33,982 nt of DNA from IMG/VR virus record IMGVR_UViG_3300003690_000236, positions 1 through 33,982 of that record. One strand, written 5' to 3'. Position 1 is the stretch's first letter, and every line of letters starts with the position of its first letter. This document shows positions 3,783-33,708 of this stretch, piece by piece. This DNA is from a virus. A program made the translations under genes and the position numbers. Under the pieces are notes generated by a model that was not told where the DNA came from, searched no databases, and was given only the letters and a program-made list of their open reading frames with translations.

Positions 3783-4006
3783 TATTTTGTTCTCCAAACA
3801 CGGACACCATTGTCAACTGTTCTTGTTGCGAAACCATAGCCTCTGCTATAGCCCCGTTGATATATCCCAGCGACTGTGTTGTTGTTGTCTTCTCTTGTGC
3901 CGTAAAGCAGAAAAGAATCACCAACAGACATACTATCCAAGAAGAGATATTTTGTACTCCTACTTGGCATTGGGATATTGCTTTCGATTTTAGGTGTGTG
4001 TTTCAT
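3782..4006 (-). CDS. Hypothetical protein (74 aa)
   Basis: ATG 4006 follows AAGGAG at good spacing and is preferred over the upstream start at 4036, which would overlap the Cro-like gene. The protein has the pattern DSMSVGDSFLLYGTREDNNNTVAGIYQRG and ends GYGFATRTVDNGVRVWRTK. This resembles a short phage family with a VGDSF strand and a closing FxTR...G.RVWR strand, possibly a DNA-binding accessory domain; no function is assigned. Confidence 0.65.
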   Translation of the reverse strand: MKHTPKIESNIPMPSRSTKYLFLDSMSVGDSFLLYGTREDNNNTVAGIYQRGYSRGYGFATRTVDNGVRVWRTK

Positions 4007-6149: not shown

Positions 6150-6335
6150 ATGAATCCAGAAATGATTCTAACACTCACAGTGTTTATATGTGGTTTTGTT
6201 ATTGGCATGGGTTTTGTTTGCATTGCACTAGTTAAATGTGATGACAAGCGCAACGCACTAGCAGAGCAACTGGTAAACACAAAAAACAAACTGCGTCACC
6301 TCGAAATCTTAAATAAATACGGGGTGAAATCATGA
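6150..6335 (+). CDS. Small membrane protein, first gene of the amidoligase operon (61 aa)
   Basis: Residues 5-28 form one hydrophobic span (MILTLTVFICGFVIGMGFVCIAL); the rest is a charged helix (KRNALAEQLVNTKNKLRHLEIL) likely to be a cytoplasmic coiled coil. ATG 6150 follows GGTAGG. The stop overlaps the amidoligase start by ATGA, so the two are translated together. It could anchor or localise the enzyme to the membrane; that is inference from the coupling. Confidence 0.75.
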   Translation: MNPEMILTLTVFICGFVIGMGFVCIALVKCDDKRNALAEQLVNTKNKLRHLEILNKYGVKS

Positions 6336-7777
6336 ATGACAAAAATATCATGAATGACAAAAAGACAGAAAAGGTCAAACTGTGTCCAGACTGTGACGAG
6401 GAATTGACGCTTAACGATGACGGAGAAAAAACGGTCAACGGGTATGTTTGCAATGAATGCCGCAGTAATTATTTTTACTGTGTTGATTGTTCAGAACATA
6501 GGCATGATGACGATTACGCAGGGCAAACGCTAGACGGTGACTGTTTGTGCTTGGATTGCTCTTGCGGTTCTGGTTGGCGAATGTGCAGTAATTGTGACCA
6601 CTACGTGAATGCCAATGTTGACTGTTGGTATTACATAGTCGATTCTGACGGCGTTTGTGAAAACTGCATAGACAATTACGCATACTGTGACAACTGCGAT
6701 GAACATTACAGTGACGACTGCGGTTGTAGGAAAAGCGAGTACATTAAAGATTATGGGTATAGACCTACCCCCATCTTTAAACTGCATTCATTCACAGCGA
6801 AAAAAAAGAAAAGCGTTGTGATGATGAGTCCAGACGGTAACACGTACGGACAGCCCTACATCAGCGACAAGATCAGCAAAAGCAATCGAGGAAATGAATG
6901 CTTCATTGGTGTTGAACTTGAGGTGGACAGCGAATCTTCAGATGTCTATTACGAAGCAGAAAGACTGATGAACAGAGTTAATTCAGATTGGATTTACTTA
7001 AAAGAAGATGGCTCGATTTCAAACGGGTTTGAGGTAGTAACACACCCTCAAACATTCAACGTCTGGAAACAACGCTTTGATGAATTTGCACCAGTACTGG
7101 AACTGGCAAAGCGTGGATTCAATTCGCATAATACTAAAACGTGTGGGTTGCATCTGTCGCTAAGTAGGAGAGCGTTTAAACAAACACATCTTTACAGGTT
7201 TTGTAAGTTTGTTTACTTTAACCCTCTCTTCATTGCCAAGTTCTCACGTAGAAGATTGTCCTTACTTAATTCGTGGGGTTCGCCGTTTGCTATCACCAGA
7301 GGCAGCGAAATGAATGTGAGGAACTATGTAGACAGAGACGAACATAACAGGTTCTTTCTTAACTGTTTAGGTCAGGCTATTTACTCAACAAAGGCACTGA
7401 TTAAAGATCATCGTTATGGTAGAGGGACTGCTTTAAACTTACCCTCACAACGGGTTGAGTTTAGAGCGCCACGAGGAACACTAAAGAAGGATACATTCCT
7501 TGCAAACATTGAGTTTGTACAATCATTGTTTGAGTTCTCGAATGTTACGAGCGTCGATGACCTTTGCCCGTTGACATTCAAAAGGTTCATTGCCAATAAC
7601 AACAGGTTTAAAAATCTGTTTACTTGGATTGACGATAACATTCCTGCAGGTGATATGTTAACTCACAGGTTGATGTACAAAAATAATGTTCTTAATGAGT
7701 ACGAAGCAAAGCAAGGTAAGAAATTGTCTAGATTTGGAAGTTACTCTTCACTGTTAACAGCGATTGGAGGTGCTTAA
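6332..7777 (+). CDS. Amidoligase-family protein (COOH-NH2 ligase, glutamine-synthetase-like) with N-terminal zinc-finger array
   Basis: The 481-residue protein has two parts. Residues 18-132 are a Cys-rich array with at least seven CxxC pairs (CPDC 18-21, CNEC 40-43, CVDC 50-53, CLDC 73-76, CSNC 85-88, CENC 109-112, CDNC 119-122), so several zinc knuckles. Residues 190-410 carry the signatures of the putative amidoligase family, which has a glutamine-synthetase-like fold: FIGVELEVD (191-199) with the paired acidic residues, YLKEDGSISNGFEVVTHP (222-239), CGLHLSLSR (271-279) and QRVEFRAPRGTL (373-384). The family is predicted to form amide bonds using ATP. It is coupled to a membrane protein upstream and followed one base later by a glutamine amidotransferase, which could supply ammonia. 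Substrate unknown: peptidoglycan, host protein or virion protein are all possible. Confidence 0.8.
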   Translation: MNDKNIMNDKKTEKVKLCPDCDEELTLNDDGEKTVNGYVCNECRSNYFYCVDCSEHRHDDDYAGQTLDGDCLCLDCSCGSGWRMCSNCDHYVNANVDCWYYIVDSDGVCENCIDNYAYCDNCDEHYSDDCGCRKSEYIKDYGYRPTPIFKLHSFTAKKKKSVVMMSPDGNTYGQPYISDKISKSNRGNECFIGVELEVDSESSDVYYEAERLMNRVNSDWIYLKEDGSISNGFEVVTHPQTFNVWKQRFDEFAPVLELAKRGFNSHNTKTCGLHLSLSRRAFKQTHLYRFCKFVYFNPLFIAKFSRRRLSLLNSWGSPFAITRGSEMNVRNYVDRDEHNRFFLNCLGQAIYSTKALIKDHRYGRGTALNLPSQRVEFRAPRGTLKKDTFLANIEFVQSLFEFSNVTSVDDLCPLTFKRFIANNNRFKNLFTWIDDNIPAGDMLTHRLMYKNNVLNEYEAKQGKKLSRFGSYSSLLTAIGGA

Positions 7778-7778
7778 T

Positions 7779-8564
7779 ATGTGTATTGCAATACTACAAC
7801 CGAGAAACAAACGATTGAAACGTAAGACTCTTAAAGCGTGTTGGGATAACAACCCAAACGGCGGAGGGTTCATGTATGCTCTGGATGGTAAGATCGTAGT
7901 TGTAAAAGAGTTGGAGAAGTTTGATAGCTTTTACAGCCAATTCCATAATCACAGAACAAAGCACAACGTGGATTTTATTCTCCATTTCAGGATTGCCACT
8001 CATGGATTGATTGATGAGAAAAACGCACACCCTCACCAAGCAAACTTCAAAACGTGGTTTGTTCATAATGGTATAATATCACAGAAATGTGATACTAAGA
8101 GCAGTCTCTCAGACACTGTGAAATTCGCAAAGCTGTTAAGCAAGTTGGAAACCGATTTTATGCTGAATGACTCAGTCCTTGAATTGGTTCGCGAGTATAT
8201 CGACACTGACAAGATCATTTTCCTAAACAATCAGGGGAAGATCAGGATTGTAAATAAATCCCTCGGGGTTAAGAAGTATGGGTGTTGGTTTAGTAACAGC
8301 ACCTATCAAAGGCAGAGCGGTTATTTCTGGTCTGGATATGCTCACGGTGGTTCAACTGCTTACTCTGCTTACAACAACGGGAACTGGAAAGACTACACGG
8401 TCAACCAAACACTCGGGACTGATTATGAAATATGTGATAGCTGTTCAAAGCAAATCACGATTGACGAGTTCGACGAGTTGAGCGCCCTTTGTCTAGGGTG
8501 TGCAGAGCGTGAACAAATCCTAGCGGAGACTGCCAGACTTGAACACGACGGACATATTATATAA
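7779..8564 (+). CDS. Class II glutamine amidotransferase (Ntn-hydrolase) with C-terminal zinc ribbon
   Basis: The start is ATG 7779 (GGAGGT upstream), which puts the catalytic cysteine at residue 2 (MCIAIL), as required for an Ntn-type glutaminase after Met removal. Other class II landmarks are in place: GGGFMYA (28-34), FRIATHG (70-76, compare RWATHG of GlmS), NAHP (82-85), VHNGII (95-100) and SDT (111-113). The fold spans about residues 2-170. A Gly/Tyr/Ser-rich linker follows, then a four-Cys ribbon (CDSC 219-222, CLGC 238-241). An upstream start at 7764 would bury the Cys and is rejected. It should release ammonia from glutamine, most plausibly for the adjoining amidoligase. Confidence 0.85.
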   Translation: MCIAILQPRNKRLKRKTLKACWDNNPNGGGFMYALDGKIVVVKELEKFDSFYSQFHNHRTKHNVDFILHFRIATHGLIDEKNAHPHQANFKTWFVHNGIISQKCDTKSSLSDTVKFAKLLSKLETDFMLNDSVLELVREYIDTDKIIFLNNQGKIRIVNKSLGVKKYGCWFSNSTYQRQSGYFWSGYAHGGSTAYSAYNNGNWKDYTVNQTLGTDYEICDSCSKQITIDEFDELSALCLGCAEREQILAETARLEHDGHII

Positions 8565-8576
8565 TCGTGTTCGCTT

Positions 8577-8669
8577 GGGGTGTGGGTATATCACTCGTAC
8601 CCCTCACCCCGTCACCACAAAACGCCCTTGCTTCCTCGGTTGCCTCGAGGGGGTGGGGGCGGTTTTTTT
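8577..8669 (+). terminator. Stem-loops and rho-independent terminator after the amidoligase operon
   Basis: A first hairpin pairs GGGGTGTGGGTA (8577-8588) with TACCCCTCACCCC (8598-8610). A second, longer GC-rich structure (about 8620-8662, around CCTCGAGG) ends in GGCGG followed by seven T (8663-8669), a typical terminator. A smaller 8-base inverted repeat GAACACGA/TCGTGTTC (8541-8548, 8565-8572) straddles the stop codon. Together they should stop transcription from 6150-8564. Confidence 0.65.
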
Positions 8670-31968: not shown

Positions 31969-32108
31969 TTTATCTCTCTTTTTTTAATATTTATAATATC
32001 ATTCAAAACTTTCTTCGCTTCTGGGTTTTTTCTTCTTCTCAAGGAATTAATTATTATAGCATACTCTTTTTCATCCAACAGAATCACTATTACAGTTTTT
32101 TTTTCCAT
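31965..32108 (-). CDS. Small hypothetical protein (47 aa)
   Basis: ATG shares one base with the phosphoesterase stop (TAATG). Reads MEKKTVIVILLDEKEYAIII then SLRRRKNPEAKKVLNDIINIKKREIK. A short strand followed by basic amphipathic helices; the DExEYxxIxxSLRRRK...KxLxxI pattern is common in tiny proteins in other phages. Function unknown. Confidence 0.6.
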   Translation of the reverse strand: MEKKTVIVILLDEKEYAIIINSLRRRKNPEAKKVLNDIINIKKREIK

Positions 32109-33331
32109 TAAATCTTGATTTCAAATATCGTTGTTCTCGATCTAATTTTATTGATAGCTTTTGGATTATAGGCTTCAAGGCTTTTGGTAATATCATATCC
32201 TTCTGTTCCATTAACATTTTGCAGGTCTACCTTTATGCCGTCCCTGTTGCCGTTAGAATAAAATATATAACAATTCTGTGATGCTCTTCCAGATAAATTC
32301 AGAGCCTTTTCAGAATAATCATTAGCGCCTACCATCGAGGAACTCCTTGAATAAATGTCCCCAACTCTCGCAGAATGAATATGTCCGCTTATTACATAGT
32401 CAATGGAAATTCCATGATTGGCATATCTGCCCATTATCTGATTAATAGATGATTCGTGCTTTGCTCCGATAGCACCATGTCCGTGCAACATTAATAAATT
32501 CTGCCCAGCTACGGTGATTACCAATTCCATCGGGTCGCCAGAGATAAACTCAATTGAACTTCCAACGAATAATGCTCTTAACATATTAAAGATAGTAAAG
32601 TCATAATTGTCTGTAGCGAGAATATCTGACCAGCCATATTCCTTTTGAGTTCTTGCCTCATTCCCAGACACACAGGCAACAGAAACATTATAGTCCTCTG
32701 AAAGCTCATGGATTGCCTGTTGCATAATGTCAACAGCAATGAATACAGCAGACGCACGATTCGTTGCATTATTAAGCATTTCGTCCAATCTGCGATCTGA
32801 ATTTATTAAATCGCCTGTAAGCGATAATAAGACGTTTCCTATATCTTGGGTCGAAAAATACTTTTTAGAGGCTTCTATGTGCCTTTTAATGCGTTTAGAG
32901 GCTATCGTAAAGTCATATTTGTTGTGTGGCAGATCAACAAGCTCATTAAAATGCAAATCAGACAAATGAATTACGCCAACTGCTTTAAGTTTTTTTGATG
33001 TGTGTTTTTTAATTTGGGTGTGCATTTTATAAGAATTCAGCAGTTCAAGGATGTGTTCGTTTAGTTCTTTAACTGCATTTTCCACCCTAGCGTGTTCACG
33101 GAATGTTTTACGCTCAATCCTGTTCCTGTCCTGATAAGCCTGTTTTTGTTTGGCTATTCTAACATTCTCTTTTATAAGGTCAGGTTCTGCTATGGTTGGA
33201 TATTGGCTTTTATAATTACAATCCTTACATAGCCATCTCTGCATTTCATCCCTTATTCCTTTTCGAATAAGATCGCCACTTCCGCAAGACGAGCAGCAAA
33301 CAATATATCCATCGTCATTAAATACGGTCAT
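32108..33331 (-). CDS. Calcineurin-like metallophosphoesterase with N-terminal zinc ribbon
   Basis: 407 residues in three parts. Residues 10-45 hold a transposase/InsA-style zinc ribbon: Cys 13 and 16 (CSSC), GxRxxxQRWLCKDC with Cys 35 and 38. Residues 50-110 are a basic coiled coil. From 118 on is a binuclear-metal phosphoesterase: HLSDLHFN (122-129), LTGDLI (171-176), GNEAR (223-227), LHGHG (282-286) and SGHIHSA (315-321), the five classic motifs. Such phage enzymes act as nucleases or phosphodiesterases, probably DNA-directed given the ribbon. The ATG overlaps the NinG-like stop by ATGA. It is one of the largest early genes. Confidence 0.8.
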   Translation of the reverse strand: MTVFNDDGYIVCCSSCGSGDLIRKGIRDEMQRWLCKDCNYKSQYPTIAEPDLIKENVRIAKQKQAYQDRNRIERKTFREHARVENAVKELNEHILELLNSYKMHTQIKKHTSKKLKAVGVIHLSDLHFNELVDLPHNKYDFTIASKRIKRHIEASKKYFSTQDIGNVLLSLTGDLINSDRRLDEMLNNATNRASAVFIAVDIMQQAIHELSEDYNVSVACVSGNEARTQKEYGWSDILATDNYDFTIFNMLRALFVGSSIEFISGDPMELVITVAGQNLLMLHGHGAIGAKHESSINQIMGRYANHGISIDYVISGHIHSARVGDIYSRSSSMVGANDYSEKALNLSGRASQNCYIFYSNGNRDGIKVDLQNVNGTEGYDITKSLEAYNPKAINKIRSRTTIFEIKI

Positions 33332-33708
33332 TTATAATTCTCCCATACTTTTTTGAGTCCATCATAAAGAGCAATTAACTGTTTATCCGTAAATCGCTTT
33401 TTGGTTTTGTATCTAGAGTGAAGAATATCATATTCTTTCTGACCAAACCTTTTTGCATACCAGTTGGAATACGGATAAAAGTCTCTGTTGTGAGCCAAGT
33501 TACAACCACGACATTGGGTGTGGCAATTGCCGTTTTGTGCTATGTCCCATCTGGTTGAATAACTCGCTCTGGGAAAAAGATGACCGCATTGAAGATTTTC
33601 TTTGGATAAACATATTACGCATTTCTTGTCTCTTGCCCTTATCATAAGACTTACAATTCTGTCTAGTCTTCTTACTAACGTCATCCTTTTTTGTTTTTTC
33701 TTTTTCAA
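33328..33708 (-). CDS. NinG/Rap-like HNH recombination endonuclease
   Basis: 126 residues with Cys 30 and 33, then CGHLFPRASYSTRWD (41-55), NGNCHTQCRGCNLAHN (59-74) and a C-terminal FGQKEYDIL..... K.RF block: the layout of lambda NinG (Rap), which resolves branched recombination intermediates and helps RecA-independent recombination. The start is TTG 33708 overlapping the stop of the replication gene (TTGA); ATG 33684 is an eight-residue-shorter alternative. Sits between the replication gene and the phosphoesterase, as expected of a DNA-metabolism cluster. Confidence 0.75.
   Translation of the reverse strand: MKKKKQKRMTLVRRLDRIVSLMIRARDKKCVICLSKENLQCGHLFPRASYSTRWDIAQNGNCHTQCRGCNLAHNRDFYPYSNWYAKRFGQKEYDILHSRYKTKKRFTDKQLIALYDGLKKVWENYK

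Follow-up and report, generated by a model that had tools for sequence, protein, structure and literature searches.

A conserved amidoligase–glutaminase gene pair with a hypervariable N-terminal array in a virus contig and its relatives

Introduction

Amidoligase systems of phages were predicted by Iyer and colleagues in 2009 (as cited in PMC10580990, PMC5498523 and PMC11318856), and larger amidoligase cassettes are carried by LUZ24-like phages (PMC3890496; PMC5498523). The linkage of an amidoligase gene to a glutaminase gene has already been noted for OM43 phages and Mycobacterium phage Marvin (PMC10580990). Our literature search found no published substrate or activity for any member of an amidoligase–glutaminase pair.

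Here, we describe such a pair in a 33,982-base IMG/VR virus contig (hereafter “the window”; host class of the virus: bacteria), and compare it with relatives on viral contigs, on bacterial contigs and in annotated phages. What is new here is that a cysteine-rich array at the ligase N terminus, and often the glutaminase tail as well, is hypervariable and mosaic among near-identical relatives, whereas the flanks and the catalytic cores are conserved.

Results and Discussion

Locus organization

Three open reading frames lie head to tail on the plus strand at positions 6150–8564 of the window, encoding in order a 61-aa one-span protein, a 481-aa ligase and a class II glutaminase. The features are as follows:

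6150–6335, plus strand: 61-aa single-span ORF (strongest 19-residue hydropathy 2.59)
6332–7777, plus strand: 481-aa amidoligase with a GS/YbdK-like predicted fold and an N-terminal cysteine-rich array (Amidoligase_2 profile, model, invariant residues)
6383–6736, plus strand: ligase N-terminal array, residues 18–135, with 7 CxxC pairs (the equivalent region is hypervariable among relatives)
6884–7654, plus strand: ligase domain, residues 185–441 (ExE at 6914–6922, H274 at 7151–7153, ExR at 7457–7465)
7779–8564, plus strand: class II (Ntn) glutamine amidotransferase domain protein, 261 aa from the ATG (nucleophile Cys2 at 7782–7784)
8433–8501, plus strand: glutaminase C-terminal four-Cys ribbon (C219, C222, C238, C241), inside the fast-changing tail
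8623–8661, plus strand: terminator-like hairpin of 17 pairs (10 G-C) followed by a T run, closing the unit

Gene spacing was as an earlier, sequence-only reading of this DNA had described it: the end of the 61-aa ORF and the ligase start have an ATGA in common (6332–6335), and a single base separates the ligase stop (TAA, 7775–7777) from the glutaminase ATG (7779). An alternative glutaminase start that ORF callers might choose (TTG, 7764) would spoil Cys2, and the ATG at 7779 is retained in L007, a relative 94% identical to the window.

Small minus-strand genes lie to the left of the 61-aa ORF, and a terminase small subunit gene to the right of the unit. Two relatives, L012 and L013, retain the pair beside the small genes that lie to its left in the window (up to 76–88% identical), and L013 also retains the terminase small subunit, portal and terminase large subunit (69–88%). 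Conservation between the window and L013 changes abruptly within the head genes, from 88% (terminase large subunit) and 85% (portal) to 39% (scaffold-like) and 38% (capsid-like). At the far end of the window, a calcineurin-like phosphoesterase with an N-terminal zinc ribbon (32108–33331, minus strand; phrog_284) lies beside a NinG-like junction endonuclease (33328–33708, minus strand).

Genomic linkage of ligase and glutaminase

Scanning viral contigs with a glutaminase alignment yielded >550 relatives, of which the best 80 loci were kept. Among these best 80, an amidoligase lies directly upstream of the glutaminase in 79/79 informative loci, with gaps mostly of −26 to +10 bases (L067 was excluded since a contig end cuts the locus, and L017, missed by the profile, was counted as ligase-bearing from its motifs). 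Scanning in the other direction, from the ligase, placed a glutaminase in the locus for 75 of 76 informative new loci (the exception being L189), overlapping or at most 60 bases away in 70 of those 75. Likewise, all 15 bacterial non-GlmS matches have an amidoligase adjoining or near the glutaminase, and the pair also occurs in the annotated phages MEP401/402, ctgrD200 and Marvin. Together, these glutaminase-side, ligase-side, bacterial and annotated-phage counts place the linkage of the two genes beyond doubt, and the neighborhood survey (79/79 and 75/76 informative loci) thus bears out the coupling of both enzymes that had been proposed.

Some loci depart from the simple arrangement. In L091 (1982–6348) and L095 (3787–8739), one glutaminase is found between two different amidoligases, which suggests that one ammonia donor may serve two ligases. 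A DUF3846 gene lies directly 3′ of the pair in L005 (6167–6550), a human-gut contig. An apparent gene fusion in L102 (681-aa ORF with both domains) was rejected: the ligase C terminus runs on in another frame, with a stop just before the glutaminase ATG, which points to a frameshift or to a frame left open by chance in GC-rich DNA.

The claim of a three-gene unit stood only in part, in that the three ORFs are indeed in tandem and the ligase and glutaminase are coupled, but membership of the 61-aa membrane protein is not supported. No homologue of this protein was detected in the viral contigs or phages searched, and the one-span ORFs of any kind found upstream of the pair (18/161 loci) are unrelated to it by sequence. 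At its position, a soluble charged ORF is found in the closest relatives (L012, L013) and unrelated ORFs in other lineages. Only two proteins make up the conserved unit, and the 61-aa ORF is probably a lineage-specific neighbor outside the conserved module, which may be expressed together with the pair. These replacements also argue against a three-part machine with the 61-aa protein as membrane anchor for both enzymes; the ATGA overlap and the predicted span would fit such a machine, which we nonetheless regard as very improbable. Separately, a conserved 55-aa soluble protein (FDVFWKDGWDNCVRVKR...PPRD) overlaps the ligase start in L001 (1443–1619), L008 (896–1072) and many MEP-clade loci.

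Predicted fold and conserved residues of the two enzymes

The window ligase itself falls 1 bit under the cut-off of the Pfam family Amidoligase_2 (PF12224; E 3.3e-4, 21 bits vs. a cut-off of 22), and 27 of 31 aligned homologues match this family at E ≤ 0.01 (best 9e-12). An AF2 model built from 31 sequences reached a pLDDT of 77.7 overall and mostly >80 in the catalytic domain, except for an insertion around residues 320–350. Compared with solved structures, residues 185–441 of this model match YbdK and a YbdK-like protein (Z 12.1–12.2; for YbdK, Z 12.1, rmsd 3.9, 219 aligned), plant glutamate-cysteine ligase (Z 12.0) and many glutamine synthetases (Z 10–11), with a Foldseek match at E 1.6e-5. 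G193, E195, E197, D226, E234, H274, R307, E376 and R378 are invariant in 163/163 homologues, and G272 is the same in 162/163; the order of this acidic/His/Arg set (ExE, H, R, ExR) matches that of the metal and ATP residues of glutamine synthetase. The amidoligase family and fold named in the sequence-only reading are therefore borne out by homologue profile matches, predicted structure and invariant residues. Among the motifs it had listed, ExE is present in all homologues examined, whereas “RxEFR” does not hold as written: the truly invariant part is E-x-R, and in relatives T or some other residue usually replaces the leading R.

Searches with the ligase alone as query returned no relevant match among sequences of solved structures and no relatives in the related-locus search. 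In NCBIfam, the window ligase was unmatched and one homologue was weakly YbdK-like; PADLOC gave no match. A choline-binding repeat match (PF01473), covering 17 residues within the Cys array in 1 of 31 homologues, was taken as chance.

For the downstream protein, assignment as a class II glutaminase with Cys at residue 2 was upheld, C2 being present in 163/163 pairs; among the residues for glutamine binding and the oxyanion, R71, N97 and G98 are conserved in 162/163, and D112 in 161/163. A profile of six glutaminase homologues matched GlmS (3e-9) and also PurF in the PDB, and EgtC was not among the matches. By contrast, the structural model matches the GlmS glutaminase domain (Z 13.0, rmsd 4.0, 171 aligned) and EgtC, an amidohydrolase rather than an ammonia donor, equally well (Z 13.0), and the conserved residues do not separate the two. 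Since the Ntn fold matches both, we kept as a rival a gamma-glutamyl on/off pair like EgtA/EgtC, in which the ligase would couple an amine to glutamate or a different acid, and the Ntn hydrolase, instead of supplying ammonia, would later cut a gamma-glutamyl bond. EgtA-type enzymes are GS-fold ligases, the best structural matches of the window ligase are YbdK and glutamate-cysteine ligase, and gamma-glutamylcyclotransferase genes lie near some relatives (L045, L065, L071), all of which is consistent with this scheme. However, the sequence profile points to GlmS and PurF instead, no other step of a small-molecule pathway was found beside the window pair, and the tight one-to-one coupling of the genes would be better explained by ammonia transfer, so that we consider the on/off scheme quite unlikely.

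Between the window and L007 (94–96% identical), dN/dS is 0.054 for the glutaminase and 0.071 for the ligase fragment, which corresponds to strong purifying selection. Because of this selection, the catalytic residues invariant in 163/163 homologues, and an adjacency kept across phage lineages and bacterial contigs, the locus represents more than a chance arrangement.

Cysteine motifs

The “about seven” CxxC pairs first seen on the ligase were confirmed as 7 pairs, with 20 Cys ahead of the ligase domain, as was the four-Cys ribbon at the glutaminase C terminus (CxxC-15-CxxC, residues 219–241). In a first homologue set, 81 of 82 ligases carry at least 2 CxxC pairs ahead of the ligase domain. In a wider set, a lineage including L146, L148, L161 and others has a clearly related ligase N terminus with zero CxxC and keeps the glutaminase ribbon, and in the MEP clade the ligase carries a single ribbon whereas the glutaminase lacks one. 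Across 163 pairs, 17 combine a ligase without CxxC with a ribbon-bearing glutaminase, and 45 a ligase with one ribbon with a glutaminase that has none. The motifs on the two proteins thus vary independently, and the suggestion that zinc arrays clasp the two enzymes together is rejected as a general rule. In L140, L146, L148, L161, L169 and relatives, ligase N termini of the same layout are nearly devoid of cysteine and contain a long acidic stretch (EEEDDDDD), i.e., a zinc-less array.

A 275-aa Mom-family protein is encoded at 1538–2362 of the window (minus strand; PF25680 E 2.8e-29, phrog_1384 8e-30; <30% identical to known phage versions). The Mom product in phage Mu carries an amide, and the presence of this gene on the same contig would fit a nucleic-acid modification pathway in which an amide is made on a modified base and the zinc motifs bind DNA or RNA. 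However, Mom occurs in only 1 of 48 pair-bearing records, namely the window itself, and we therefore rejected a link between Mom and the pair. Mom is also not known to require a glutaminase, and the 17 pairs without any ligase CxxC further count against such a pathway, which appears most improbable.

Hypervariability of the ligase array and glutaminase tail

For the short-array type, mean identity over 185 close pairs is 82% for the ligase domain and 82% for the glutaminase core, vs. 56% for the N-terminal array and 51% for the glutaminase tail, values which are descriptive only because many pairs share members. Between L012 and L013, the ligase is 90% identical and the array 41%; at the nucleotide level, identity is about 80–90% upstream, 31–48% in the array and 78–87% in the ligase. 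A dip in the array with recovery in the ligase appears in independent lineages (upstream, array and ligase nucleotide identities of 91–93, 51–83 and 83–96% for L147/L146; 93–100, 53–88 and 93–100% for L170/L188; 95–100, 63–93 and 93–100% for L145/L135; 90–96, 58–88 and 91–100% for L152/L168). This hypervariability was observed among relatives of the window; L007, its near-identical relative, carries a ligase fragment without the array. In L148 and L161, the glutaminase tail is 45% identical and the core 92%. Within our partial coverage of the literature, no paper was found on these cysteine-rich arrays or their hypervariability.

Synonymous distances are mosaic: an array dS of 1.70 between L140 and L146 contrasts with ligase and glutaminase-core values of 0.37 and 0.18, and the order is reversed between L146 and L161 (0.37 in the array vs. 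0.96 in the ligase), which is a signature of array exchange. In young pairs, amino-acid changes were overrepresented in the array (18N/1S vs. 9N/20S, Fisher p 1.4e-5; and, in a second case, 76N/21S vs. 9N/17S, p 6e-5). Positive selection on the array is only suggested by these sequence comparisons, because 18 changes out of 19 compared with a neutral expectation of 0.77 gives a p-value of only 0.047 and the young pairs were picked from several looked at. Array dN/dS is usually 0.2–0.8, not clearly >1, and relaxed constraint is another possible cause of rapid change in an auxiliary domain.

Proposed activity and its main alternative

A scheme consistent with these data is that the N-terminal Cys2 of the class II glutaminase would split glutamine and free ammonia, which the adjoining GS-fold ligase would join to a carboxylate activated by ATP, yielding an amide. 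From the conserved residues and predicted folds, we consider such glutamine-dependent amidation likely. The ligase array, and in some lineages the glutaminase C-terminal tail, would be non-catalytic and would recognize the target that bears the carboxylate; a protein, an envelope component or some other host macromolecule is the most likely candidate. The hypervariability of the array favors a role in guiding the ligase to its target, and we assign the combination of amidation with target recognition by the array a probability of about 0.5.

The main rival to target recognition is that the pair is a minimal form of the peptidoglycan-modification cassette of phiEco32, LUZ24 and PSA-HP1, and would amidate or relink wall stem peptides, thereby blocking superinfection by other phages. 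Exactly this has been proposed for the longer cassettes (PMC5498523, PMC10580990, PMC11318856), as a prediction for which we found no published test. BLAST with proteins of StenR_269, which carries the full cassette set, detected an ATP-grasp ligase in 29 related loci, mostly directly after the glutaminase and bridging to the longer cassettes, and GGCT in 3 (L045, L065, L071). The same search found no ATP-grasp, second ligase or cyclotransferase in the window, whose contig may be incomplete; a search for the second COOH-NH2 ligase (PF14395) gave 0/49 records, with no positive control responding. In addition, MEP-clade genes adjoin DNA replication genes. Nor is a hypervariable array easy to reconcile with wall precursors that hardly differ from one Gram-negative host to another: a variable recognition head suits a varying macromolecule better. 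Overall, we regard wall modification as a serious but clearly lesser possibility.

The ATP-grasp gene just after the glutaminase (weak RimK match) was seen at 4002–4751 in L019 and in 27 further loci (e.g., L020, L034, L063, L089), overlapping the glutaminase by 4 bases in most. With this gene content, such loci take an intermediate position, larger than the two-gene unit and smaller than the LUZ24-type cassette.

Returning to target recognition, it is tempting to speculate, if with considerable doubt, that the array is a swappable, fast-diversifying recognition head which aims the same catalyst at different host or rival-phage proteins in related phages. If true, this would be a phage protein-amidation system whose specificity varies in a way comparable in logic to restriction specificity domains. 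Amidoligase–glutaminase pairs are common in environmental phages, and conserved catalysts with a hypervariable front end provide a direct experimental handle. Finding the target, should this reading be true, would reveal the substrates that phages amidate and the reason for doing so, and might extend the known repertoire of phage-host conflict by a post-translational modification.

Comparison with known systems

Over residues 185–441, the window ligase resembles YbdK, glutamate-cysteine ligase 2 and glutamine synthetase in predicted fold and in ExE and ExR, but at only about 10–14% identity; unlike these enzymes, it has the N-terminal array and would, from its gene coupling, need a partner glutaminase. 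The GlmS glutaminase domain and EgtC share the Ntn fold, Cys2, Arg71, Asn97-Gly98 and Asp112 with the window glutaminase, which differs in having no attached synthase domain and in its four-Cys C-terminal tail. Folds unrelated to those of the window pair are found in MurT, a Mur ligase, and in GatD, a class I amidotransferase. Staphylococcus aureus MurT-GatD, a two-protein system for glutamine-dependent carboxylate amidation encoded by co-transcribed genes (PMC3267633), is thus a functional likeness only.

Closer relatives are Methylophilales phages MEP401/402 and Mycobacterium phage Marvin, in which, according to PMC10580990, an amidoligase and a class II glutaminase are adjacent in the same order as in the window. 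The MEP401/402 GATase is 36–39% identical to that of the window and has the same invariant residues but no zinc tail. The MEP ligases, only 24–26% identical overall, have a longer N-terminal region that contains a single ribbon. The phiEco32/LUZ24/PaP3/PSA-HP1 cassette (Iyer 2009; PMC3890496; PMC5498523) likewise combines a PF12224 amidoligase with a class II GATase. It also includes an ATP-grasp enzyme, a further COOH-NH2 ligase and, in many cases, a gamma-glutamylcyclotransferase, none of which was found in the window contig. This kind of pair is already known or predicted (Iyer 2009; Marvin, MEP401/402, LUZ24-like phages), and the window pair is a reduced form of it.
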